A stretch of 64,000 bases of DNA from Gemmatimonadota bacterium. GTDB taxonomy: Bacteria > Gemmatimonadota > Gemmatimonadetes > Longimicrobiales > Gaopeijiaceae. Made by a program: the position numbers and the translations under genes. The notes under the pieces were generated by a model. It saw nothing but the letters and a program-made list of their open reading frames with translations, did not search any database and was not told the origin of the DNA. Below, in pieces: positions 42,091 through 54,149 of the stretch (positions are counted from its first letter, which is position 1; each line of letters begins with the position of its first letter). The stretch is from assembly GCA_022827345.1 (NCBI GenBank), contig JAJDTB010000027.1, forward strand, positions 62,001 to 126,000, in the 5' to 3' direction.

Positions 42091-42157
42091 GGGACGTGAT
42101 GAGCGCGCCGATTCCGTCCCACACCGGGCGCGCACCCCTCGCAGGGTGGAGGGCGAC

Positions 42158-43126
42158 GTGACCCGCCGTCCGCAACCCCCTCGGAGTCGCCCCCCGTCCG
42201 TCGACGACGCCGTCGCATTGTTGCGCGGCCAGGGTTACGTGGCCGACGTGGGTCTGGGCACGGCCCTTTTCCTGTCGCTCGAACTGGGCCGGCCGCTGTT
42301 GCTGGAGGGCGAGGCGGGCGTCGGCAAGACCGAGGTGGCGAAGACGCTGGCGGCGGGACTCGGCCGTCCGCTCATTCGGCTGCAATGCTACGAGGGACTG
42401 GATCTGGCGTCCGCCGCGTACGAGTGGAACTACGCGAAGCAGATGATCCATATCCGGGCTGCGGAGGGAGACGGCAGCCGGGCACCTGGTGCGAGCGCCG
42501 GTGCGGCCGATGGACCGCGCACCGACACCGACAACCCGCCCGCCGACCTCGCCCGCGACGTCTTTTCCGAGGACTTCCTCATCCGGCGCCCCCTGCTCTC
42601 CGCTCTCGACCCGGCCGACGGCGTCGCCCCCGTCCTCCTCATCGACGAACTCGACCGCACCGACGAGCCCTTCGAGGCATACCTGCTGGAGATTCTGTCG
42701 GACTTTCAGATCACGATCCCGGAGCTGGGCACGGTGACCGCCACCGAACCGCCCCACGTCGTCATCACCTCCAACCGGACCCGCGAGATCCACGACGCGC
42801 TCAAGCGCCGCTGCATCTATCACTGGATCGACTACCCGACCGCGGCGCGCGAACTGGAGATCCTGGCGTCACGCGTTCCGGACGCGCCGGAGCAGCTGAG
42901 CACCCAGGTGGTGGCGTTCGTGCAGAAGGTGCGCGAGCTGGAGCTGTTCAAACGGCCCGGCGTGGCGGAGACGCTGGACTGGACCCGCGCGCTCATGGCG
43001 CTCGACCGTCACACGCTCGACCGGGAGACCGCGCACCGCACGCTCGGGGTGCTGCTCAAGTACCAGGACGACCTGGAGCGAATGGCCGAGGGCGGGGTGG
43101 AAGAGGTGATGGCAGCGGCGGAATGA
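42158..43126 (+). CDS. MoxR-family AAA+ ATPase (CoxD-like)
   Basis: 322 aa from the GTG at 42158, which has GGAGG at good spacing; a GTG four codons earlier lacks one. Walker A LEGEAGVGKTE near residue 50, Walker B VLLIDELDR near 165, sensor-1 region VVITSNRTREIHDALKRRC, typical of MoxR/CoxD. CoxD ATPases work with a VWA protein (CoxE) to finish the Mo active site of CoxSLM-type enzymes. The coxSLM operon lies 0.8 kb upstream on the same strand, separated by the inserted vapBC, and a CoxE-like gene is at 51.7 kb. An acidic or Gly/Ala-rich insert lies between Walker A and B. Confidence 0.92.
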   Translation: MTRRPQPPRSRPPSVDDAVALLRGQGYVADVGLGTALFLSLELGRPLLLEGEAGVGKTEVAKTLAAGLGRPLIRLQCYEGLDLASAAYEWNYAKQMIHIRAAEGDGSRAPGASAGAADGPRTDTDNPPADLARDVFSEDFLIRRPLLSALDPADGVAPVLLIDELDRTDEPFEAYLLEILSDFQITIPELGTVTATEPPHVVITSNRTREIHDALKRRCIYHWIDYPTAARELEILASRVPDAPEQLSTQVVAFVQKVRELELFKRPGVAETLDWTRALMALDRHTLDRETAHRTLGVLLKYQDDLERMAEGGVEEVMAAAE

Positions 43127-43173: not shown

Positions 43174-44946
43174 TCACCGCACCCGCCCGAACCTCACGTC
43201 CCGTGTCCGCCCGCTCGACAGGTAGAAGCCGATGACCTCGCCGTTGCGGTCGCGCTCGAAGGCGAACGCCGTGCCGCCGCCCGAGAAGGTGTCCGCGTCG
43301 TCGCCGGGCGTCAGCGCCGCGTTGCCCAGTCTGCGCTGGTACCTGACAAGGTCGCCGCCTTCGACCGTGAAGGTGTAGAAGGTCTCGATCTCCTCGCTGA
43401 AGAACCGGCCCGCGAAGGCCGCGAGATCATCCTCCGTCGGCTGCCACGGTTCGGTGGCCGCTTCCTCGTCTGCCGGGTCGCCGCCGCCGGCAGCGTCGCC
43501 CTCCTCCTCCTCTTCTTCCATCGCATCCCCGAAGAAGGCCGCGGCCAGTTCGAAGGCAACCGAGCTGTTGAACTGCGCGTGGTTGCTCTGGACCGTGATG
43601 CCCGCGTTGATCTCGGGGTAATAGGCCAGCATCGAGCGGTGGGCCACGTCGGAGCCGCCGTGGTTCACGCGCTTGAGTCCGCCCTGCTCGCCGACGCTGA
43701 GGCCGTAGCCGTAGCCGGTCTCGTCGCCGTTGTTCAGCACGAAAGAGGTCATCATCTCGTCGATGCTCGCGCGCGTGCCGACCTGCGGGCTGGCGTAGTT
43801 CTCGACCCAGGTCTGGAGGTCGGCGACCGATGCGTACACGGCACCGGCACCGACCGCGGCGCCGAAGTCGCCGATCTGCCGATAGCCGCCGGGCGACGGC
43901 GTGTAGCCTTCGGACCTGTTGGGAACGATGGCGCGCGGCGAGGGCCGGACCATGCTCGCGGTCATTCCGAGCGGGCCGAAGACGTTCTCCTCCATGAAGA
44001 CGTGGAAGTCCTGGCCAGAGGTGCGTTCGACGATCGCCGCGGCGAGCCCGAACGCCGTGTTGTTGTAGTTGTACTCGGCGCCGGGGTCGTTCTGGAGGGC
44101 CGGCTGGCGCTGCACGATGTCGATGATCTCCGAGCGGTCGATCCAGTCGCCCTGGTTGAGGAGGCGGCCGGTCATCCGCATGAGGTTCAGGAACTCGCGC
44201 AGGCCGGAGGTGTGCGTGAGGAGGTGCCGGACCTGGATGGTCTCGGCGAAGGCGGGCAGTTCGGGGATGTGCGAGCGGATGTCGTCGTCCAGGGACAGCA
44301 GCCCGCGCTCCTGCTGGAGCATGACGGCGAAGGCGGTGAACTGCTTCGAGGTCGAGCCGATGTTGGTGCTGGTCTCGGGCGTGAACGGGACCCCATGGGT
44401 GAGGTCGGCCATCCCGTAGGCCTCCGAGTACAGTGTGTTCCCGTCGCGCCACACCTGGACGGCGGCTCCCGGCGTGTGGTCGCCGTCGAACCGCGCCATC
44501 AGCTGGTCGGTGAGCTGCTCGGGGTCCGTAGCGACGGGCTCGTGGCGCAGCAGGGTGATCACAAACAGACCGCTGATCCCGGCGAAGTCTTCCGCGACCG
44601 ACAGTTCGACCGTGTGCGTGCCGGCGCTCGAGGTGCGCCCTGCGAAGCGCTCGATGCCCTGGCCGAGCCCTCCGAACTGCCCGATCTGCTCCCCGTCCGG
44701 ATCCAGGATGCGGATGTTCACGTCGACCGAAATCTGGTCCACTTCACCCATGACGAATTCGTTCCCGTCCGCGTCGATCGTGTAGCTGGCCGTTTGTCCG
44801 GGGGAGAGAGCGCCCGTGACCATGCGGCCCGGTTGCAGTTCCGTGGTCTGTCCCCACGCCTGGCAGCCTGCGACGAGGATCGGGACCAGGGCCCAGAGGG
44901 CGAAAGGCGAATGGCGGCCAGGGCGGCGGCGGGCGACCGGGTTCAT
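43174..44946 (-). CDS. PPC-domain class C beta-lactamase-like serine hydrolase lipoprotein
   Basis: 590 aa from ATG 44946 (AGGAG before). Lipobox ILVAGC. Residues about 25-140: PPC-like beta-sandwich (PGRMVTGALSPGQTASYTID). Residues about 150-470: beta-lactamase/DD-peptidase fold with SxxK in GSTSKQFT, YxN in YNYNNTAFG, and HxG in VNHGGSD replacing KTG. C-terminal lipocalin-like DUF3471-type segment (EDDLAAFAGRFFSEEIETFY). These enzymes hydrolyse D-amino peptides or esters in the envelope; the substrate is unknown. It lies right after a longer paralogue in the same direction, clearly a tandem duplication. Confidence 0.9.
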   Translation of the reverse strand: MNPVARRRPGRHSPFALWALVPILVAGCQAWGQTTELQPGRMVTGALSPGQTASYTIDADGNEFVMGEVDQISVDVNIRILDPDGEQIGQFGGLGQGIERFAGRTSSAGTHTVELSVAEDFAGISGLFVITLLRHEPVATDPEQLTDQLMARFDGDHTPGAAVQVWRDGNTLYSEAYGMADLTHGVPFTPETSTNIGSTSKQFTAFAVMLQQERGLLSLDDDIRSHIPELPAFAETIQVRHLLTHTSGLREFLNLMRMTGRLLNQGDWIDRSEIIDIVQRQPALQNDPGAEYNYNNTAFGLAAAIVERTSGQDFHVFMEENVFGPLGMTASMVRPSPRAIVPNRSEGYTPSPGGYRQIGDFGAAVGAGAVYASVADLQTWVENYASPQVGTRASIDEMMTSFVLNNGDETGYGYGLSVGEQGGLKRVNHGGSDVAHRSMLAYYPEINAGITVQSNHAQFNSSVAFELAAAFFGDAMEEEEEEGDAAGGGDPADEEAATEPWQPTEDDLAAFAGRFFSEEIETFYTFTVEGGDLVRYQRRLGNAALTPGDDADTFSGGGTAFAFERDRNGEVIGFYLSSGRTRDVRFGRVR

Positions 44947-45032
44947 TGCGGGGCTCCTGTCGCGGAGGGAGAATCTCGCTTGAAGATTGAAGAGTTCGCG
45001 CCGCATCGAGTCCGGGCAAGTGGCCATCTCCC

Positions 45033-47048
45033 TCACCGAACCCGCCCGAACCTCACATCTCGCGTCCGCACATTGCTCAGGTAGAACCCGATCACCTGGC
45101 CGTTGCGGTCGCGCTCGAAGGCGTATGACATCCCGCCTCCCGAGAAGCCGTCCTTCTCGCCGGGCGTGAGCGTCGCCGCGTCCAGCCGGCGCTGGTGCAT
45201 GACCAGGTCGCCATCCTCCACCGTGAAGGTGTAGTAGGTCTCCAGTTCCTCGCTGAAGAAGCGGCCGGTGAAGTCGGCCAGGGCCTCCTCATCCGGCTTC
45301 CACTCCTCCGGGGCGTCGTCGGCCAGACGGGTTGCGCGCTGCTGCTGGCCGCCCTGGTTCATGATGGCTGCCGCTACGTCGCCGTCGTCTCCGCGCAGGA
45401 AGGTGACCAAGGCCTCGACCGGAAGCAGGCGGAAGGTCGAGTCGGACGTGGGCACCATCTCGATCCGGGGCTGGCCGGTGGCCTGCGTGTAGAAGGTGTC
45501 GCCATCGCGGCTGAAGGTGAGGATGAAGGTGGGCGCGGCGTCGAGCGCGTAGCGGCCGACGAACTCGTCGAAGTCCTCCGCGTCGTAGTCCTCGGGGTCG
45601 AACTCGCTCGCAACGGCCTCTTCCTCCTCCTCGAGTTCCATGGCGTCCTTGAAGAACGCTTCGGCCAACTCGAATGCGAGGTTGCTGTTGAACTGGGCGT
45701 GGTTGCTCTGGGTGGTGATGCCGGCGTTGATCTCGGGGTAGTACACGAGCATCGAGCGGTGCGCGACATCGGCGCCGCCGTGATGAACGCGCTTGAGCCC
45801 GCCCTGCTCGTCGACGGAGAGGCCGTAGCCATAGCCGGTCTCCTCGCCGTCGGTGAGCACGAACGAGGTCATCATCTCGTCGATGCTCTCGCGGGTGCCT
45901 ACGCGGGGGTCGACGTAGTTCTCCACCCAGGTCTGGAGGTCGCCGATGGTGCTGTAGACCGCGCCGGCCCCGACCGCTCCGCCGAGGTCGCCGATCTGGC
46001 GGTAGCCGTCCTCGGTGGGCGTGTAGCCCTCGGACTGGTTGGGGACCATGTGGCGGGGCGACGGACGCACCATGGACCCGGTCATGCCGAGAGGGCCGAA
46101 CACGTTGTCCTCCATGAAGGCGTGGAAATCCTGGCCCGAGGTGCGCTCGACGATGGCGGCGGCCAGGCCGAAGGCCGTGTTGTTGTAGTTCCACTCGGCG
46201 CCGGGGGCGTTCTGGAGCGCTGGCTGGCGCTGAACGATGTCGATCAGCTCGGAGCGGTCGATCCAGTCGCCGCGGTCGAGGCGGCGGCCCGTCATGCGCA
46301 GCAGGTTGAGGAATTCGCGGAGTCCCGAGGTGTGGGTGATGAGGTGCCGCACCTGGATGGTGCCGTCGAACCTGGGCAGTTCGGGGATGTGGGTGCGGAT
46401 GTCGTCGTCGAGGGAGAGGTGGCCGCGTTCGGCCTGCAGCATGACGGCGAAGGCGGTGAACTGCTTGGAGGTGGAGCCGATGTTGGTGCGGGTGTCCTCT
46501 TCGAACGGCAGGCCGTAGGTCAGGTTGGCCATGCCGGAGGTGTTGGAGTAGAGCGTCTCGCCGTCGCGCCAGACACGGATCGCGGCGCCGGGTGAGTTCG
46601 GGCCGTCGAAGCGGGACATCATCTGGTCGGTGAGTTTGGCGGGGTCGGTCGCGATGGGTTCGTGACGGAGCAGGGTGATTTGGTAGTCGCCGGTCTCGTC
46701 TCCGTCGTCGTCCGTGGCGATGAGCTCGACGGTGTAGGTGCCGGAGGCCGAGGTGCGGCCGCTGAAGCGTTGGTGGCCGCGGCCGAGCCCGCCGATGCGG
46801 CCGAGCTGGGTGTCGTCCGGGTCGAGTATGCGGATCGTGACGTCGATGGAGATCTGGTTGACTTCGCCCAGGATGAAGTCGTCCTCGTCGGCCTGGACGG
46901 TGTAGCGGGCGGTGTCGCCGGTGGAAAGGGAACCGGAGAGGGTGCGGCGCTGTTGCAGTTCGGTCTGGGCGGAAACGCCGGTGGCGGCGAGGATAGCCAG
47001 CAGCGCGGTTGCGAGAATGGCCGAGAGGCGAACTGAAGGTGTATTCAT
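45033..47048 (-). CDS. PPC-domain class C beta-lactamase-like serine hydrolase (longer paralogue)
   Basis: 671 aa from ATG 47048; Sec signal ending GVSAQ, with no lipobox, so periplasmic or secreted, unlike its neighbour. Same order of domains: PPC-like start (QRRTLSGSLSTGDTARYTV), catalytic core with GSTSKQFT, WNYNNTAFG and VHHGGAD, then a C-terminus that holds two DUF3471-type segments (YDAEDFDEFVGRYALD and EEALADFTGRFFSEELETYY), where the neighbour keeps only one. The two proteins agree over most of their length and even in their last residues (TRDVRFGRVR). Duplication was followed by loss or gain of one C-terminal repeat and of the lipid anchor. Confidence 0.9.
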   Translation of the reverse strand: MNTPSVRLSAILATALLAILAATGVSAQTELQQRRTLSGSLSTGDTARYTVQADEDDFILGEVNQISIDVTIRILDPDDTQLGRIGGLGRGHQRFSGRTSASGTYTVELIATDDDGDETGDYQITLLRHEPIATDPAKLTDQMMSRFDGPNSPGAAIRVWRDGETLYSNTSGMANLTYGLPFEEDTRTNIGSTSKQFTAFAVMLQAERGHLSLDDDIRTHIPELPRFDGTIQVRHLITHTSGLREFLNLLRMTGRRLDRGDWIDRSELIDIVQRQPALQNAPGAEWNYNNTAFGLAAAIVERTSGQDFHAFMEDNVFGPLGMTGSMVRPSPRHMVPNQSEGYTPTEDGYRQIGDLGGAVGAGAVYSTIGDLQTWVENYVDPRVGTRESIDEMMTSFVLTDGEETGYGYGLSVDEQGGLKRVHHGGADVAHRSMLVYYPEINAGITTQSNHAQFNSNLAFELAEAFFKDAMELEEEEEAVASEFDPEDYDAEDFDEFVGRYALDAAPTFILTFSRDGDTFYTQATGQPRIEMVPTSDSTFRLLPVEALVTFLRGDDGDVAAAIMNQGGQQQRATRLADDAPEEWKPDEEALADFTGRFFSEELETYYTFTVEDGDLVMHQRRLDAATLTPGEKDGFSGGGMSYAFERDRNGQVIGFYLSNVRTRDVRFGRVR

Positions 47049-47130
47049 TGGATGATCCGATCGTGAGCCGAGGATGGACGGTGGCAAACGTTAGGATGGA
47101 CCGGACAAGCCAGGCAAATCGAGATCAATC

Positions 47131-47346
47131 CTGGATTCGGAAGGCGATCTCCTGATGGCGACCGGCCTGGCGCTCGTCCTGGGTTGGCCGTGGGCACTCG
47201 GGCCGTGGCTGTATCCCCTGTACTACGTGGCACTGCTCGTGCCGCGGGAGCACGACGACGACCGGCGGTGCGCTTCGAAGTACGGCCGGCTCTGGCAGCA
47301 GTACCGCGAGAGGGTTCCGTGGCGTATCGTGCCGCAGGTCTATTGA
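47131..47346 (+). pseudogene. C-terminal remnant of a sterol reductase (ERG4/ERG24-like) family protein
   Basis: About 70 codons ending at a TGA at 47346. The translation GDLLMATGLAL, LYPLYYVALLVPREHDDD, KYGRLWQQY and VPWRIVPQVY follows the very end of the delta14/delta24-sterol reductase family (membrane helix, then the basic C-terminal NADPH-site tail with conserved KYG-W-Y and VP-RI-P). The ATG at 47155 would give only 63 aa, and the codons before it already read as family sequence, so the gene has lost about 350 upstream codons. It borders a DUF1214/sulfotransferase/SDR cluster. The family call rests on motif memory. Confidence 0.6.
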
Positions 47347-47431
47347 CTGGTCGGCGTGCCCGTCGACACCGGGCTTCGCCAACCCATCAGCCGCGCGGGG
47401 ACCTCACCAGGCGCCGGCACAGGAAGCACTA

Positions 47432-48628
47432 ATGAGAAGACTCGTCATTCGACTGCTCGGTCTGTTCCGCCGCACTTCCCTGCTCGCACTGAGGCTGCGC
47501 GGCAGGAAGCCGGCCGATGCTGCCGAAGAGCGCGTGGTCAACGGCAAGGCCTGGGACGAGTTCTGCGATACGCTGAAGGCGGCCGGTGCCGCGCTGAGCT
47601 TCCCCGGTGCGCCCCGCGACCCCTTCAACCAGGCCGAGGGCTACCGCTACCTCAGCCGCCTGGCCCGTGGCGGCTTGATGGCATTCGTCGAATACGCCGA
47701 CCCGCGTGCGCCGGCCCTGCACCGCGTGGCCCACGAAACCGTCAAGCTGGGCAGCGACAACCCCGACAACTACTACCAGACGGCTGCGATCCGTGGCGAT
47801 TACGAATACCGAATCACCGGTCGGCGCAACACGGTCAAGTACCTCGGCTTCGGTACCCAGGCCGGGCACTATGGGCAGGGTGGGGGCATGCCTCCCACCG
47901 GCTACGTCGAGGCCGGGGAGCTGGAGATCGACGCGGATGGCCGGTTCGAGATGATCGTCAGCAGCCGGCGGCACGAGGGGAACTGGCTGCCGATGACGGC
48001 CGATAGCGGGACGCTGATCGTGCGACAGACGTTTCTGGACCGGGAGACCGAGGTTCCGGCCGAACTGAATATCGAGCGCATCAACTGCCCGGACGACGAG
48101 AAGCGGCCCCGTCCCCTGACACCGGAGCAGATCGACGAAGGACTCAAGTCCGCCAGCACGCTGGTAGCGGGCGCGGCAATGCTCTTCGCCAACTGGGCTC
48201 GCGGCTTCCGGAAGCACACCAACACGCTCCCCATGTTTGATCCGGAGGTTTCGCTCGCGGCGGGCGGCGATCCGAACATCGCCTACTATCACAGTCATTG
48301 GGCCGTGGCCGAGGACGAAGCGCTTGTCATCGAGGCGACGCCGCCCGAGTGCGAACACTGGAACTTCCAGCTCAACAATTACTGGATGGAGTCGCTGGAC
48401 TACCGCCATCACACCATCCACACCAACAAGCACCTGGCGCACCACGAGGAAGACGGATCAGTGCGCATCGTGGTGGCCCACGAGGACCCGGGATTGCCGA
48501 ACTGGATCGAGACTGCCGGACATACCTCGGGCACGATGTGTTTCCGCTGGATCAGGGCGGCGGAGCATCCGCAACCGCGAACGCGGGTTGTGAAGCTGTC
48601 GGAGCTGGACGCCCTTCGTCATGGGTAG
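47432..48628 (+). CDS. DUF1214 domain protein
   Basis: 398 aa, cytoplasmic, no signal or membrane span. The C-terminal half fits DUF1214: YYHSHWAVAEDEALVIEATP, CEHWNFQLNNYWMESLDYR, and VRIVVAHEDPGLPNWIETAG, GTMCFRWIRA. The N-terminal part (DNYYQTAAIRGDYEYRITG, YLGFGTQAGHYG) is a beta-rich DUF1254/1214-type sandwich. Biochemical function is unknown. From memory, such genes recur beside sulfotransferase and SDR genes in actinobacterial and other lipid or steroid loci. AGGAAG lies before the ATG. First gene of a four-gene same-strand set. Confidence 0.85.
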   Translation: MRRLVIRLLGLFRRTSLLALRLRGRKPADAAEERVVNGKAWDEFCDTLKAAGAALSFPGAPRDPFNQAEGYRYLSRLARGGLMAFVEYADPRAPALHRVAHETVKLGSDNPDNYYQTAAIRGDYEYRITGRRNTVKYLGFGTQAGHYGQGGGMPPTGYVEAGELEIDADGRFEMIVSSRRHEGNWLPMTADSGTLIVRQTFLDRETEVPAELNIERINCPDDEKRPRPLTPEQIDEGLKSASTLVAGAAMLFANWARGFRKHTNTLPMFDPEVSLAAGGDPNIAYYHSHWAVAEDEALVIEATPPECEHWNFQLNNYWMESLDYRHHTIHTNKHLAHHEEDGSVRIVVAHEDPGLPNWIETAGHTSGTMCFRWIRAAEHPQPRTRVVKLSELDALRHG

Positions 48629-48679
48629 CCGGCCTGCAGACGGGCGCCCCCCATCGAGGCGGCCCACGCGGGAGGCCTG

Positions 48680-49939
48680 ATGGAGACCTCGACCGACTAC
48701 CGCAACCCCCACCGCCCCTTACCGGTTTCGCTCTTCAACCAGGCTGGCCGAATGGCCCGGCGGTGCGGCCTCAACGATGACCTGGATGTCGGCAGGATGA
48801 TCGACGCGGCGCGCCGGCAGACCGGCCTGTCCGACTTCGGTGACGAGTGGTTCGTCGAGCCGCTCGATGTTCTCGTCCGCTCGATCAACGCAGAGGCACG
48901 ACTGACCCCGTTGGGAGTGAGGATTCAGCGATCACGGATCGTCTCGGCGCTCTCGATCCGCTTGCGCGTCGAACGGCTGTTGCGGGAGCACCCCGAGATT
49001 CACGACATCCGTCTCGGCAGGACCATCGTGATCGCCGGCCTGCAGCGCACTGCCACGACAACGCTGCACCGCCTGATCGCGGCGGACCCCCGTGCTCGGG
49101 CGCTGCGGTCGTGGGAGGCGCTGAATCCGGTGCCGCTTTCCCGCGAACGGACGGGTGATCTCCGGCGCCGGATCCGTCACGCGATGATGGCGGCCCGGGC
49201 CGTCCGATATCTCGCTCCGGAGTTCTTCGTAGTTCATCCGATCGCCTACGACGCACCCGAGGAGGATGTCCTTCTCCTCGACGTGTGCTTCATGAGCCAG
49301 GCACCCGAAGCGGCGATGCACGTACCGAGCTACGCCAGGTGGCTCGAGGGACAGGATCACACGAAGTGCTACGAGTATCTGCTCACTCTGCTCAGGATCC
49401 TCCACTGGCAGCGCCCCGGCGACTTCTGGATCCTCAAGACTCCTCACCATGCGGAGCACCTCGACGTGATTCTGGATGTCCTGCCCGATGTTCGCATCGT
49501 GCAGACGCACCGCGATCCGAGGAAGGCGATACCGTCGTTCCTGAGCATGGTGGCGCACGGACGCGGAATCCTGAGCGATCACGTCGACCCGGAGGAGATC
49601 GGGACGCACTGGCTACGCAAGATTCTGCGCATGATGGAGCGCTCGATGACCGCTCGGAGAGCGGCGGGCGACGGTGTGTTCGTCGATGTATCGTACTACG
49701 ATGTGGTCGCGGATCCGCTGGGCGAACTGCAGAGGGTGTACGAGGGTACGGGGATCGAATTCACCGAGAAGGCCCGGAGTGCCGCGCAAGCGGTTTCTGG
49801 ACGAGACGTGAAGGACCGCCACGGCAGACACGTCTATTCGCCCGCGAGCTTCGGCCTCGACAGTGCTTCCATCGACGAGGCCACCGCCTTCTACAGGCGG
49901 GCGTACCGTATCCCCCACGAGGACGCCAACGGCGGGTGA
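48680..49939 (+). CDS. sulfotransferase family protein
   Basis: 419 aa. PAPS-binding 5'-phosphosulfate loop IVIAGLQRTATTTLHRL near residue 115 and 3'-phosphate motif TDR/S-type region VRIVQTHRDPRKAIPSFLSM near residue 270. DFWILKTPHHAEHLDVIL is the acceptor/PAPS-site strand-helix typical of the Sulfotransfer_3 group. It would move sulfate from PAPS to a hydroxyl or amine of a small molecule or lipid. GGGAGG four bases before the ATG. The next gene (SDR) starts 4 bp after the stop, so the products likely act in one pathway, perhaps on a sterol-like or other hydrophobic alcohol; this is inference. Confidence 0.9.
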   Translation: METSTDYRNPHRPLPVSLFNQAGRMARRCGLNDDLDVGRMIDAARRQTGLSDFGDEWFVEPLDVLVRSINAEARLTPLGVRIQRSRIVSALSIRLRVERLLREHPEIHDIRLGRTIVIAGLQRTATTTLHRLIAADPRARALRSWEALNPVPLSRERTGDLRRRIRHAMMAARAVRYLAPEFFVVHPIAYDAPEEDVLLLDVCFMSQAPEAAMHVPSYARWLEGQDHTKCYEYLLTLLRILHWQRPGDFWILKTPHHAEHLDVILDVLPDVRIVQTHRDPRKAIPSFLSMVAHGRGILSDHVDPEEIGTHWLRKILRMMERSMTARRAAGDGVFVDVSYYDVVADPLGELQRVYEGTGIEFTEKARSAAQAVSGRDVKDRHGRHVYSPASFGLDSASIDEATAFYRRAYRIPHEDANGG

Positions 49940-49943
49940 CCCG

Positions 49944-50984
49944 ATGCCCACCACGAAACGCGACACGATCCTCAGCGCGGTGACCGGTGCGGTCGCTGAC
50001 CGCCTGTCGCAGCGAAAGACGCTGAGCCCGGTCCCCGAGAGCGTTCGCATCGACGGCAAGACCTGCCTCGTTACCGGGGCCAACAGCGGGCTCGGGAAGG
50101 CGGTTGCGGTGGACCTGGCGAGGCGAGGGGGACGCGTGTTGATGGCCTGCCGAGGCGGCCATCCCGACGCCGCGGAAGAGGTGAAGCGGCTCTCGGGATC
50201 CGACGCGGTCGCGATGCTGAAGGTGGACCTTGCCGACCTGGGCTCCGTGCAGGCGCTCTGCGACAGGCTCGAGAGCGACGTTGAAAGGCTGGACATCGTC
50301 GTCCTCAACGCCGGCGTGATGCCGCGCACCGGGCGACGGTCGGCCCAGGGGTACGAACTGATGTTCGCCGTGCACTTCCTGGCCAACCGGCTCCTGATCA
50401 ACCGACTCCTGTCCGACGGCACGATCCGCCCGGACAGCCGTTCCGGCAGAGTGCCAAGGATCGTCCTTGTCGCATCGGAGGCGCATCGGTCCGCCGGCCC
50501 CATCGACTTCGACCATTTCGGCGCGTTCACCGACTACGGCCTGAGGGACGGCCTGAAGCACTACGGGATGAGCAAGCTGCACCTTTGCACATATGCGCAG
50601 GAGCTCTCGCGCCGGCTGAATCCGGGCGGCGAGGTGCGCGTGGCGGTGACGTCGCTCTGCCCGGGCGCGGTCAACTCCAACCTGGCGCGCGAGGCCCCGG
50701 TGCTGCTTAAGCCGCTGCTCCACCCGATCATGCGGCTCTTCTTTGCGGCGCCGGAAAAGGCTGCGGCACCGGTCACCTACGCCTGCTGCGCGGACGGCCT
50801 GGAGCGGCGCAGCGGGGTCTACCTGCACCTCATGCAGGAGAAGGGACCCTCCGCGCTGGCGATGGACGAGGGCGCCGGGGCGAGGCTGTGGGACGAGAGT
50901 GCGGCATTGCTTGCGCGGCACGTCAAGGGCGGTGAGGCGGACGGGTCCGGGCCGATGCCCCACCAGCGCACAGGAGACGCATGA
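49944..50984 (+). CDS. short-chain dehydrogenase/reductase (retinol dehydrogenase-like)
   Basis: 346 aa from ATG 49944; the start is set by the upstream stop 4 bp away. Classical SDR: cofactor motif TGANSGLGKAVA, acidic or basic strand-2 end MACRGG (favouring NADP(H)), NNAG-like LNAGVM, and the catalytic Tyr-x3-Lys in HYGMSKLHL with Ser in LVASEAHRS. PGAVNSNLAR follows as in retinol dehydrogenase and protochlorophyllide reductase relatives. About 80 residues longer than minimal SDRs, with an extended N-terminus and C-terminal tail. Between the sulfotransferase and SRPBCC genes, it likely oxidises or reduces the alcohol handled by that set. Confidence 0.92.
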   Translation: MPTTKRDTILSAVTGAVADRLSQRKTLSPVPESVRIDGKTCLVTGANSGLGKAVAVDLARRGGRVLMACRGGHPDAAEEVKRLSGSDAVAMLKVDLADLGSVQALCDRLESDVERLDIVVLNAGVMPRTGRRSAQGYELMFAVHFLANRLLINRLLSDGTIRPDSRSGRVPRIVLVASEAHRSAGPIDFDHFGAFTDYGLRDGLKHYGMSKLHLCTYAQELSRRLNPGGEVRVAVTSLCPGAVNSNLAREAPVLLKPLLHPIMRLFFAAPEKAAAPVTYACCADGLERRSGVYLHLMQEKGPSALAMDEGAGARLWDESAALLARHVKGGEADGSGPMPHQRTGDA

Positions 50985-50987
50985 CCC

Positions 50988-51437
50988 GTGTTCCGGCACT
51001 TGATCAGTTCGGACGCTGTGGAGATCGAGGCCCCGATCGAGAGGGTGTGGGAAACCCTCCTGGACATCGACCGATACGGCGTGTGGAACCCCTTCACCAC
51101 CCGCGTCGAGACCACATTCGAAATCGGCTCGCCCGTCGACCTCTACGTCAAGCTGGGCCCAATCAGGCTCAGGCAGCCAGAACGAATCGAGGTTGTCGAC
51201 CCGCCGCGCCTGCTCGTCTGGAGTACGAAGGTCGGCCACCCGCTTCTGGTCTCGGCCAGGCGGGAGCAGCGTCTGGACGATCTGGGCACAGGCCGCTGCC
51301 GCTACGTCACGACCGACGTGTTCACCGGGTTGCTGACGCCGCTGGTCGTCCTTCTGTTCGGCCGGCTCGTGCGCCGCGGCTTCAACGACATGGCATCGGG
51401 TTTGAAGCGGCATTCGGAGAGCCTCGCCGGAGAGTAG
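50988..51437 (+). CDS. SRPBCC (START/Bet v1-like) domain protein
   Basis: 149 aa; GTG start 3 bp after the SDR stop, with AGGAGA of the shared leader upstream. Family pattern: strand VEIEAPIERVWETLLDIDRYGVW with NPFT, then VVDPPRLLVWSTK, TDVFTGLLTPLV and a long C-terminal helix FNDMASGLKRHSESL. The fold is a deep hydrophobic cavity that binds lipids or polyketides or works as a cyclase/dehydrase. Terminal intact member of the DUF1214-sulfotransferase-SDR set, consistent with a hydrophobic substrate. Confidence 0.88.
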   Translation: MFRHLISSDAVEIEAPIERVWETLLDIDRYGVWNPFTTRVETTFEIGSPVDLYVKLGPIRLRQPERIEVVDPPRLLVWSTKVGHPLLVSARREQRLDDLGTGRCRYVTTDVFTGLLTPLVVLLFGRLVRRGFNDMASGLKRHSESLAGE

Positions 51438-51464
51438 CCAGTCCCGCCACCGCGAAGCGTGGGG

Positions 51465-51610
51465 TCAGGATGTCTCCGCCTGCTGCCCGTACGCCGTCGC
51501 CGGCGGCACCCGCAGGTCCCACACCAGGCCCAGCTTCTCGAGGGCTTCGGCGCGAGCAGCCAGCCCGCTCCCAGGCCCGATATGCCAGCACCCACGACCG
51601 CGATTCTCAT
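51465..51610 (-). pseudogene. remnant of an FAD-dependent oxidoreductase (start of gene with internal deletion)
   Basis: On the minus strand an ATG at 51610 opens with a dinucleotide-binding fold, MRIAVVGAGISGLGAGWLL, the standard start of NAD(P)/FAD-binding amine-oxidase-like proteins. After 20 codons the sense jumps by one frame into ALEKLGLVWDLRVPPATA and stops at 51465. So only the first 20 codons plus an unrelated or distal piece remain. A full gene of this type commonly starts a flavoprotein of 400 or more residues. Confidence 0.55.
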
Positions 51611-51699
51611 CCTCAAGGATAGTCCGGCACCCGGCCGGTGTTCCCGAGGTTCCATCGCGGCGAATCGACTTCAGCGCGAGAGCACCGTATTGATTGACC

Positions 51700-52986
51700 A
51701 TGACCGGCAAGCCCACCCACCCCGGCCGCCTCCCCGAAAACGTCGCGCACTTCGTGCGCCTGCTGCGCGCCGCCGGCCTGCCCGTCGGACCCGGCCACAC
51801 GATCACCGCCGCCCGCGCACTGGCCGCCGTGGACATCACGGCTAGGCGGCAATTCTACTGGGCCCTGCACGGCACCCTCGTCTCGAAGCGCGAGCACCGC
51901 CACGTCTTCGACAGCGCCTTCCGCCTCTTCTGGCGCGATCCCTTCGGTGCGGACGAGGCGCTCAACGCGCTGCTTTCACGCTCGCAGATCCCCGTCGAAA
52001 AGCCGCCGTCCCGCGCTCCGGCCCGGCTGTCGCCCGAAGACGAGACCGCGCCGCGTCCGCAAGCCCTGCCCGAGCGCGAAGTCGCACACGAAATCCCCTT
52101 GCGGCTGGCCTTTTCCCCGACCGAAGTCCTTCGCACCAAGGACTTCGAGGAGATGACCGCCGCCGAAGTCATGCAGGCGAAGGAGGCCATCCGCTCGCTC
52201 AGGCTCGACCTTCGCCCGGTGCTCACCCGCCGCCACGAGCCCGATCCGCGGGGCCGCTTCATCGACCTGCGCCGCACGCTCCGCACCAGCGTCCGCACCG
52301 GCGGGTGCCCACTTCCCCTGCAGCGGCAGTCGATGAAGACCCGCCGGCCCACGATCGTGGCCCTCTGCGACATCTCCGGCTCGATGGAGTCCTATTCGCG
52401 CATCCTCCTGCACTTCTTCCACGCGCTCACCAACGCCGCCGACCGCGTCCACACCTTCGTCTTCGGCACCCGCCTCACCAACATCACCCGCCTGCTGCGC
52501 GACCGCGACGTCGACCGCGCACTGGACCGAATCGGCACCACGGTGCAGGACTGGTACGGCGGCACCCGCATCGGCGCCTCGCTACAAGCCTTCAACCTGC
52601 ACTGGTCCCGCCGGCTCCTCGCTCAGGGCGCCGTCGTCCTCCTCGTCACCGACGGGCTGGACCGCGAGGGCGGCGACGGCATCCGCGCCCAGGCCCGCCG
52701 GCTGCGCAAGTCGTGCCGAAGCGTGATCTGGCTGAATCCGTTGCTCCGCTACCGGGCCTTCGCCCCTCGGGCCGCCGGCATCAAGGCGTTGCTGCCCGAG
52801 GTGGATGAGCATCGACCGGTCCACAATCTCGACAGCCTCGCGGAGTTGGCCGCCACCCTGAGCGGGCGCGGTTTACTGGCGCGCCACCCTGCATCCGCCT
52901 ATGATGCCATAGGCAGTCCGGCCACGACGGATCGGCTGCATCGGAAGGGGTCAGGATCCCGGTTCAGCAAGGAGACAACAGGATGA
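51700..52986 (+). CDS. CoxE-like VWA domain protein
   Basis: 428 aa from ATG 51700 (an in-frame TTG is two codons earlier). N-terminal helical domain (HFVRLLRAAGLPVGPGHTI, FYWALHGTLVSKREH), a conserved basic middle (RGRFIDLRRTLRTSVRTGG), then a VWA domain with MIDAS motif CDISGSMESYS, later Thr in GTRIGASLQAF and Asp in LLVTDGLD. CoxE proteins pair with MoxR/CoxD ATPases (one is at 42 kb) to mature CoxL-type Mo sites. Its stop overlaps the start of the aminotransferase gene by four bases, an unusual partner, so here it is not in the cox operon. Confidence 0.9.
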   Translation: MTGKPTHPGRLPENVAHFVRLLRAAGLPVGPGHTITAARALAAVDITARRQFYWALHGTLVSKREHRHVFDSAFRLFWRDPFGADEALNALLSRSQIPVEKPPSRAPARLSPEDETAPRPQALPEREVAHEIPLRLAFSPTEVLRTKDFEEMTAAEVMQAKEAIRSLRLDLRPVLTRRHEPDPRGRFIDLRRTLRTSVRTGGCPLPLQRQSMKTRRPTIVALCDISGSMESYSRILLHFFHALTNAADRVHTFVFGTRLTNITRLLRDRDVDRALDRIGTTVQDWYGGTRIGASLQAFNLHWSRRLLAQGAVVLLVTDGLDREGGDGIRAQARRLRKSCRSVIWLNPLLRYRAFAPRAAGIKALLPEVDEHRPVHNLDSLAELAATLSGRGLLARHPASAYDAIGSPATTDRLHRKGSGSRFSKETTG

Positions 52987-54149
52987 ACACCAGGTTTTCT
53001 CGTCGTCACTTCATGGGCAGCGCGGTCGCCGCCCTCGGCGCGGCCGGGCTCAGGCCCAGGTCCGCTCTCGGCCTCACGCTGCCGCCTCCGCCGAAGGGCC
53101 TCGGCCCGGTCGACCCCTACGACGACCTCGCCAAGCTGTCCTCCAACGAGAACCCGTACGGGCCTTCCGAGAAGATGATGGCGTCGATGAACGCCGCGTG
53201 GAAGTACTCGAACCGGTACGGCTACCCCGACGGCGATGTCCTCGAGAAGATCGCCGAGCACCACGGCGTCGGCACCGACCACATCATCATGCACGCCGGG
53301 TCCGGCGAGACGCTCAAGGTCGCCGCGCTCGCATTCCTCAGGCACGAGGAGAAGGTGGTCGGCGTCGAGCCCACCTACCTCACCGTGTACCGGGCCGCCT
53401 CGGGCGTGGACGCCGACGCGATCATCCGCCCGCTCCTTTCCGACCATACCCAGGACATCGACGACCTCATCCAGGTCACGAAGCGCAACTACCGCGATGT
53501 CGGCATGGTCTACGTCTGCAACCCCAACAACCCGACCGGCGTGGTCGTCCCCGATTCGGACATCCGGCACCTCCTCGACAACATCCCCGAGGACATCCCG
53601 GTCCTGATCGACGAGGCCTACCACCACTTCGTGCAGGATCCGCGCTACGCGACGGCGGTCCCCTACATCCAGGAAGGCCGCAAGGTCCTCGTCACCCGCA
53701 CCTTCTCCAAGATCTACGGCATGGCCGGGCTGCGCCTCGGCTACGGGATCGCCCCGCCCGAGATGATCGACCAGATGCGCACCTACACCACCGGCACGAT
53801 CAACGCGCTCGTCAAGTGGGGCGGTGTGGCCGCGCTCGAGGATACCGAGTCCGAGGCGTATGTCAGGGACACGACCATCGCGCTTCGGGACGCCACGGCG
53901 GACAAGCTCCGAGGCCAGGGTTTCGAGGTGATCCCGTCGGAGACCAACTTCTTCATGGTCCACACCGGCCGTCCGGCGTCCGAGGTGAGGGCGGCGTTCC
54001 GCCAGCGCGATGTCGCCGTGGGCCGCGACTTCCCGCCGATGCTGGATTATCTCCGGGTGTCGATCGGGACCGAGGACGAGATGGAGCGCTTCCTCGCGGG
54101 ATGGAACGAGATCTTCCCCGACGGGATGACGGCCACGGGAACGAGGTAG
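52983..54149 (+). CDS. Tat-exported PLP aminotransferase (HisC-like)
   Basis: 388 aa. Twin-arginine signal at the start (SRRHFMGSAVAALGAAG, cleavage near RSALG). The rest is a fold type I aminotransferase close to histidinol-phosphate aminotransferase: KLSSNENPYGPSEK, HAGSGETLKVAAL, VCNPNNPTGVV, LIDEAYHHF, and the PLP lysine in TRTFSKIYGMAGLRLGYG, then Arg near the C-terminus (YLRVSIGTEDE). HisC is cytoplasmic; a Tat leader would place this one in the periplasm with PLP already bound. Overlaps the CoxE-like gene by four bases. Substrate unknown; no his genes are near. Confidence 0.9.
   Translation: MNTRFSRRHFMGSAVAALGAAGLRPRSALGLTLPPPPKGLGPVDPYDDLAKLSSNENPYGPSEKMMASMNAAWKYSNRYGYPDGDVLEKIAEHHGVGTDHIIMHAGSGETLKVAALAFLRHEEKVVGVEPTYLTVYRAASGVDADAIIRPLLSDHTQDIDDLIQVTKRNYRDVGMVYVCNPNNPTGVVVPDSDIRHLLDNIPEDIPVLIDEAYHHFVQDPRYATAVPYIQEGRKVLVTRTFSKIYGMAGLRLGYGIAPPEMIDQMRTYTTGTINALVKWGGVAALEDTESEAYVRDTTIALRDATADKLRGQGFEVIPSETNFFMVHTGRPASEVRAAFRQRDVAVGRDFPPMLDYLRVSIGTEDEMERFLAGWNEIFPDGMTATGTR

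Follow-up and report, generated by a model that had tools for sequence, protein, structure and literature searches.

Within a 64,000-nucleotide stretch of a Gemmatimonadota genome (the window; positions 62001-126000 of contig C41 in G000, a 4.79-Mb draft that is 97% complete), we found four close-set genes for a DUF1214 protein, a sulfotransferase, a short-chain dehydrogenase (SDR) and an SRPBCC protein, preceded by the stump of a sterol reductase. Judged by its relatives, this cluster is probably the surviving core of a horizontally transferred sterol- or steroid-modifying operon of the order SDR1-ERG24-DUF1214-sulfotransferase-SDR2-(SDR3)-SRPBCC, and the best reading of the comparisons is that the operon's reductase end erodes repeatedly. 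The stump and the core genes, in which PAPS denotes 3'-phosphoadenosine-5'-phosphosulfate, are as follows:

47131-47346, plus strand: C-terminal stump of an ERG4/ERG24 (Delta14-sterol-reductase-like) protein, PF01222, last 68 residues
47432-48628, plus strand: DUF1214 protein, 398 aa, PF06742, E 4.2e-7, 30.9 bits (cut-off 25)
48680-49939, plus strand: PAPS-dependent-type sulfotransferase, 419 aa, PF13469 Sulfotransfer_3, E 9.4e-43, 147.4 bits (cut-off 27)
49944-50984, plus strand: SDR2, short-chain dehydrogenase, 346 aa, PF00106, E 1.6e-19
50988-51437, plus strand: SRPBCC protein (START-like lipid-binding fold), Polyketide_cyc2, 149 aa, PF10604, E 5.4e-10; 97% identical in the congener G173

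These Pfam assignments agree with the gene names given in an earlier sequence-only reading of the window, which had also taken the left border for a sterol-reductase remnant and had named failure to align with ERG4/ERG24 proteins as the result that would count against it. The alignment is in fact clear, the frame at 47095-47343 matching ERG4_ERG24 (PF01222) with an E-value of 2e-15 (56.9 bits, cut-off 27). The match is confined to profile positions 366-432 of 432, so the window copy is not the full-length transmembrane reductase with its cofactor-binding core. It is a remnant and not a working member; the window reductase cannot be active because only the C-terminal sixth of the protein is kept. 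Assignment of the stump to a DUF1295 or ICMT-like protein was ruled out, ERG4_ERG24 being its sole match at a threshold of 0.01.

An intact counterpart occupies the same place in the congener G063, whose operon reads SDR1-ERG24-DUF1214-sulfotransferase-SDR2-SRPBCC. There SDR1 and a 384-aa reductase (L020 7016-8170, profile positions 78-432) lie directly upstream of DUF1214, and the window stump is 70% identical to that reductase over 77 aa. In the PDB, the G063 reductase matches Delta(14)-sterol reductases and nothing else; its closest solved relative is the bacterial enzyme 4QUV (E 3e-43), with a conserved C-terminal stretch. Outside the phylum, SDR1-ERG-DUF1214 is intact in two Acidobacteriota loci (L040, L042) and one from Gammaproteobacteria (L044); in L041 it has suffered an internal deletion, in L054 it is divergent, and in L072 the reductase lies 3.4 kb upstream of DUF1214. 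Full clusters with an intact sterol reductase, which the sequence-only reading had expected in relatives, thus exist; the flavoprotein expected with them belongs to another operon (see below). Since SDR1 and ERG are intact in the operons of relatives, the left border of the window cluster is a decayed part of the operon.

The decay is not confined to the window. In G095, from another genus of the family, what is left of the reductase is a stump interrupted by in-frame stops, its breakpoint different from that of the window, and in G060 and G209, from another family, SDR1 is reduced to its last 43 residues ahead of DUF1214. These sequence comparisons indicate that the operon reductase has been lost more than once. 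An intact distant ERG homologue elsewhere in the window genome (C37:7811-8869, E 2.4e-35) could compensate for the loss. Separately, a further congener, G059, encodes an ERG4/ERG24 homologue (L113, C9:3569-4873) that covers nearly the whole profile at 431.6 bits, far above the other Gemmatimonadota copies.

The core genes are separated by gaps of 51, 4 and 3 bases. NCBIfam assigns no family to the DUF1214, sulfotransferase or SRPBCC proteins or to the two reductases. In our sample of 298 genomes from the phylum, DUF1214 is found in 12: the window genome, the congener G063, G095, and nine members of another family. It is the most conserved member of the operon, being 85-92% identical in the 11 other genomes (one partial). 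A whole-genome profile search with PF06742 failed to recover the window's own DUF1214, and the DUF1214 counts therefore rest on protein queries. A candidate C-terminal DUF1214 remnant in G200 was rejected, the match stopping at a contig edge. A structure model built from 10 sequences was poor (predicted local distance difference test score, pLDDT, 44.5); one built from 60, the window protein plus 59 full-length relatives out of 82, reached 87.9. The latter has a helical N-terminus and mostly strands after residue 110, and it superposes on 6ANS from Burkholderia cenocepacia with a Z of 43.4 over 368 residues, placing it in the family fold. VPA0106 and VPA0735 (DUF1254/DUF1214-like) share that fold at a Z of ~12-13; all of these proteins are uncharacterised, and none has a sulfotransferase partner in the data examined here. 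In the fold search only uncharacterised relatives scored above Z 8, galectin-like and other beta-sandwich entries reaching at most 6.6, and the modelled fold points to no function.

The sulfotransferase matches 2ZQ5 (E 1e-47) and 2Z6V (E 5e-42) in the PDB. It contains the stretches GLQRTATT, which is P-loop-like, and THRDP, both of which we take to be sulfotransferase motifs. Across the 79 of 82 relatives with alignments longer than 300 residues, GxxR[TS]x[TS][TSA] is present in 75 and [TV]HR[DN]P in 69. Genes that make or recycle PAPS lie beside the module in several genomes. An adenosine-5'-phosphosulfate (APS) kinase gene is found directly upstream of it in L069, L080 and L089; in Paraburkholderia sprentiae CysQ, CysD and CysN follow DUF1214-sulfotransferase with one gene between; in Tsukamurella CysC-CysD is divergent from DUF1214-SDR-sulfotransferase; and two Novosphingobium plasmids have CysQ close to DUF1214, in stretches where no sulfotransferase is annotated. 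Of the other four plasmid regions, two have neither, one has a sulfotransferase 4 kb off and one is unannotated. With such neighbours a role in sulfation fits, as does the sulfation of a hydrophobic alcohol that had been proposed for the window genes.

A scan of genome contigs yielded 293 DUF1214 relatives in all, and the results that follow cover the best 80 of these. In 77 of the 80 loci the sulfotransferase gene comes directly after DUF1214 on the same strand; in the other three, 36, 0 and 192 bases remain before the contig ends. SDR2 is near DUF1214 in 65 loci, SRPBCC in 41, SDR1 in 9, ERG in 7 and APS kinase in 4, at thresholds that miss the short SDR1 tail of L036. For neighbour clustering L021, L022, L024, L026 and L027 were dropped as lying on the same contigs as L032, L035, L034, L038 and L036, respectively. 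Among the bearers, going by their record titles, are Gemmatimonadota, Acidobacteriota, Dadabacteria, several Pseudomonadota, Actinomycetota, Bacteroidota, Chloroflexi and myxobacteria; two marine members of the last group, Enhygromyxa salina and Paraliomyxa miuraensis, are scan matches. In other families and phyla, too, the core persists where ERG and SDR1 are absent. Beside the DUF1214 operon of L073 and similar Acidimicrobiia loci we also observed a divergent gene for a luciferase-like monooxygenase (L073 7931-8995, minus strand).

In a DUF1214 tree (L023, L025, L028, L029 and L030 excluded), the window falls inside a 15-member set that mixes five phyla with support of 100/97, and the labels taken together require 17 changes vs a minimum of 10. 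For SDR2, the window copy shares 76-78% identity with those of Acidobacteriota, Dadabacteria and Chloroflexi bins vs 70% with that of its congener. ClpX of G060, from another family of the phylum, is by contrast 73% identical to that of the window genome, 65% to that of the gammaproteobacterium G305 and 59% to that of the acidobacterium G303. Horizontal transfer of the operon between phyla is the simplest reading of these sequence data, with the caveat of stray contigs in bins. Labels of the form RHO, COS, IRC or APA appear in 18 of the 80 record titles. They fit four sponge names, Rhopaloeides, Coscinoderma, Ircinia and Aplysina, that occur in PMC8163846, and from the titles we infer a sponge origin for these 18.

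The link to sterols comes from the reductase and from the sterol genes of operon bearers. Within the phylum sample, 11 of the 12 genomes with DUF1214 vs 9 of the 286 without it encode an intact ERG4/ERG24 homologue (E below 1e-29; p 6e-14 by a Fisher test that ignores kinship). So do 26 of the 39 additional bearers of the operon that were searched, L058 having been left out. The gammaproteobacterium G305 bears the intact SDR1-ERG sulfation operon of L044 plus a full sterol cluster (L209 4064-13380), in which genes for a 3beta-hydroxysteroid-dehydrogenase-like protein, a Rieske protein, a Delta14-reductase (E 1.5e-67 to 4QUV), CYP51 (E 2e-101) and a fused squalene monooxygenase-oxidosqualene cyclase (SQMO-OSC) stand in a row, with a divergent gene whose product has a sterol-methyltransferase C-terminal domain. 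The gene order of L210 (G311) is like that of this cluster. The operon-type reductase is far removed from the biosynthetic type found in G305, with 38% identity to the L210 copy over 251 aa.

The window genome itself encodes a 1125-aa squalene-epoxidase/oxidosqualene-cyclase fusion with a DCTAE motif (contig C75, L173 4261-7638, minus strand), which recurs at 96-97% identity in G173 and G162 and at 85-86% in G045 and, as a C-terminal part at a contig edge, G097. Neither activity is encoded in the sulfotransferase cluster, which is not itself a sterol biosynthesis cluster. Directly upstream of the fusion lies a decayed CYP51 C-terminus (L173 7641-7961, minus strand) that has lost the haem-cysteine stretch, and the same decayed tail is common to L184 (G162) and L185 (G045). 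From these genes, the organism may cyclise oxidosqualene and is probably unable to remove the C14 methyl group. A Delta14 reductase would then be left without work, which would fit the loss of the operon reductase, although the distant C37 homologue is still intact.

Fusions of this kind are already known, since PMC10070321 speaks of fused SMO/OSC homologs as well as sterol gene clusters in demosponge metagenomes, and we do not regard ours as novel; the part of PMC4919349 available contains neither 'fused' nor 'fusion'. The likeness to the sponge-symbiont clusters lies in the fusion of the window genome and in the whole G305 cluster with its sterol methyltransferase, whereas the window cluster is a separate tailoring operon on another contig, and the text of PMC10070321 makes no mention of a sulfotransferase. 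Our literature search, with most subscription journals outside its reach, found no paper that joins DUF1214 with a sulfotransferase or describes a sulfation operon, and the Palauibacterales paper PMC10469786 does not mention sterol, steroid or sulfotransferase.

We infer the substrate of the operon, the transfer of sulfate, the order of steps and the role of DUF1214 from the genes. The dehydrogenases and, where present, the sterol reductase would adjust the oxidation state of the sterol ring or side chain, the SRPBCC protein would bind the hydrophobic intermediate, and the sulfotransferase would transfer the sulfate group of PAPS to a hydroxyl of the sterol, constantly partnered by DUF1214, a beta-sandwich protein. 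The window lineage has lost the reductase end, and its other four genes remain under selection. The substrate could be made by the bacterium, through the SQMO/OSC fusion of the window genome, or taken from a host, a possibility raised by the several operon bearers without a detected cyclase. More tentatively, bacteria of many phyla, many of these bacteria in sponge-labelled metagenome-assembled genomes (MAGs), may share a transferred sterol-sulfating operon in which DUF1214 would be the constant partner of a PAPS sulfotransferase.

Several observations weigh against a transferred sterol-modifying operon. ERG is near DUF1214 in only 7 of the 80 loci, and 13 of the 39 further bearers have no intact ERG homologue (G313, G316, G317, G319, G329, G331, G333, G334, G336, G338, G339, G340 and G341, the last with a weak partial match). 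The association with ERG is uncorrected for kinship, and within the genus it amounts to 2 of 2 vs 6 of 16 genomes (p 0.18). Eight bearers (G063, G095, G060, G056, G303, G304, G309 and G310) have no detectable full-length cyclase or squalene epoxidase, so sterol would be imported there unless the draft genomes miss genes. On four of the eight plasmid regions viewed, no sulfotransferase is annotated close to the DUF1214 relatives, and the count of phyla could be too high if contigs have strayed into MAG bins.

The module might instead serve steroid breakdown or detoxification, sulfation and oxidation preparing, storing or exporting intermediates during growth on host or environmental sterols, an account we consider rather unlikely. 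It draws on Mycobacterium tuberculosis, where 2ZQ5 (384 aa) is STF1 (Rv3529c), and where Rv3529c-Rv3531c are presumably sulfotransferase, SDR and DUF1214 homologues; our own comparison covers the sulfotransferase. That set differs from the window cluster in sitting in a steroid-degradation region, and no ERG24 or SRPBCC gene is known there. PMC6429209 counts the neighbouring Rv3529c, Rv3530c and Rv3531c as genes of cholesterol catabolism, which also speaks for the sterol reading of the operon, and it gives a prediction that growth on cholesterol needs Rv3531c. On the sphingomonad plasmid pNL2, DUF1214 genes are near those for a steroid Delta-isomerase, FadD3 and acyl-CoA dehydrogenases, and steroid degraders are reported to be enriched in sponges in PMC5790920. 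KshA_C matches are strong in Gordonia G316 and G317 (163-316 bits), G313 (234-236 bits) and G311 (118-211 bits), the first three being those of the 13 ERG-less bearers that this search covered; a strong match of this kind marks steroid degraders. Yet the matches in Gemmatimonadota bearers are weak (62-83 bits; two of 74-75 bits in the window genome) and look like generic Rieske oxygenases, and a Delta14-type reductase in the operon suits sterol building or remodelling better than ring opening. As an observation in its own right, two frames beside a Rieske/KshA_C gene of the window genome (contig C60, L198 5270-10974, minus strand) each combine a GPP34 domain with a cytochrome P450, and a frame like these occurs in G063 (L201 15882-17915).

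It is improbable that the operon sulfates a non-sterol lipid alcohol such as a hopanoid, a long-chain alcohol or a polyketide, with ERG an occasional neighbour acting on something else. In its favour, ERG is not next to DUF1214 in 73 of the 80 loci, the SRPBCC and SDR families are unspecific, and G307, G308 and G312 have a squalene-hopene-type cyclase only, judged by its DDTA motif, which was read in the G308 and G312 copies. However, operon and ERG are associated across phyla, three ERG-less bearers have strong KshA_C matches, and no hopanoid-specific gene was seen within the operon.

The four-gene core of the window cluster stands at a site whose content varies across the genus. Its edges and the scar on its right are the following:

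45033-47087, minus strand: beta-lactamase-family gene, left edge of the site, PF00144, E 1.4e-61; syntenic in the 11 congeners read
51474-51542, minus strand: scar, last codons of a fatty-acid desaturase gene, 88% identity with the 3' end of the desaturase gene of G247 (L163 7727-7795)
51543-51610, minus strand: scar, first ~22 codons of an Amino_oxidase flavoprotein gene, aligning with the start of the intact L163 12530-13816 (G247)
51694-52986, plus strand: VWA CoxE-like gene, right edge of the site, PF05762, E 2.9e-65; present in 22 of 23 genomes of the genus

Between the beta-lactamase-family gene and coxE the window holds the ERG stump and the four-gene core. Smaller leftovers occupy the site in four of the 11 congeners read, namely SDR2, SRPBCC and a Fic gene in G173, fragments of sulfotransferase, SDR2 and SRPBCC in G017, and SRPBCC fragments in G152 and G066; the other seven show no detectable trace of the cluster there. 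The Fic-domain gene (L162 5591-6787 in G173) has similar starts in L164 3295-4491 and L167 7848-9050. On the left flank, two minus-strand beta-lactamase-family genes stand in tandem (window 43174-47087) with DNA cross-matches of ~77-82% in congeners, and they are probably a duplication. The flanks at 51694-54149 and 42146-43126 hold the CoxE-like VWA gene (by Pfam), a MoxR-like ATPase frame (by eye) and an adjoining aminotransferase gene.

The right-hand scar has a different origin. At this site G247 carries an operon that encodes an Amino_oxidase flavoprotein, a pair of CMAS methyltransferases, a DUF1295 protein and a desaturase. In the window the desaturase tail is fused to the flavoprotein start at 51542/51543, so ~5.9 kb is missing relative to G247. 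By profile the flavoprotein remnant reaches only NAD_binding_8 at E 0.007, below its cut-off; it is established by the same DNA starting an intact Amino_oxidase gene in the congener. Comparison with G247 thus identifies the scar as a deletion within a neighbouring cyclopropane/desaturase operon, unrelated to the sulfotransferase cluster. The flavoprotein remnant that the sequence-only reading had placed at this border does exist, if only as ~22 codons joined to a desaturase tail; as the first gene of the neighbouring operon it is excluded from the cluster and is not a lost redox gene of the pathway. The suggestion that the pathway swaps its oxidoreductases gained no support, whereas the shrinking it had proposed is seen in the leftovers at the site in congeners, the independently broken G095 reductase and the CYP51 stump beside the cyclase.

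Selection on the core was gauged by the ratio of nonsynonymous to synonymous divergence (dN/dS, Nei-Gojobori) between the copies of the window, G063 and G095, together with that of G173 where there is one. DUF1214 gives 0.08-0.12, the sulfotransferase 0.20-0.23, SDR2 0.22-0.25 and SRPBCC 0.26-0.35; the four open core genes are under purifying selection and do not drift freely. The ERG tail (67-68 codons) gives 0.20-0.29, a value that probably dates mostly from before the truncation. A promoter and terminator scan, which is weak for Gemmatimonadota, found no sigma-70-like promoter and no terminator. That the window copy is a dying, functionless fragment and that only its relatives work is very improbable: the site holds only fragments, SDR2 and SRPBCC, or nothing in congeners, the reductase is truncated, SDR1 is gone and no promoter was found, but all four core genes have open frames, lie tightly together and are selectively constrained against relatives (0.08-0.35), and other families and phyla keep the same core in the absence of ERG and SDR1.

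If a sterol-modifying, sulfating operon is the correct reading, DUF1214, a large family, would be assigned to sulfation chemistry, its first function, and a sulfation branch would be added to bacterial sterol metabolism. Sterol sulfates are known from sponges. The gene set would be testable for sterol sulfate production in animal symbioses, and symbionts could be a source or converter of the sponge sterol sulfates. Sterol genes would move between phyla and then erode from one end, which bears on the reading of single bacterial sterol genes as proof of sterol production.

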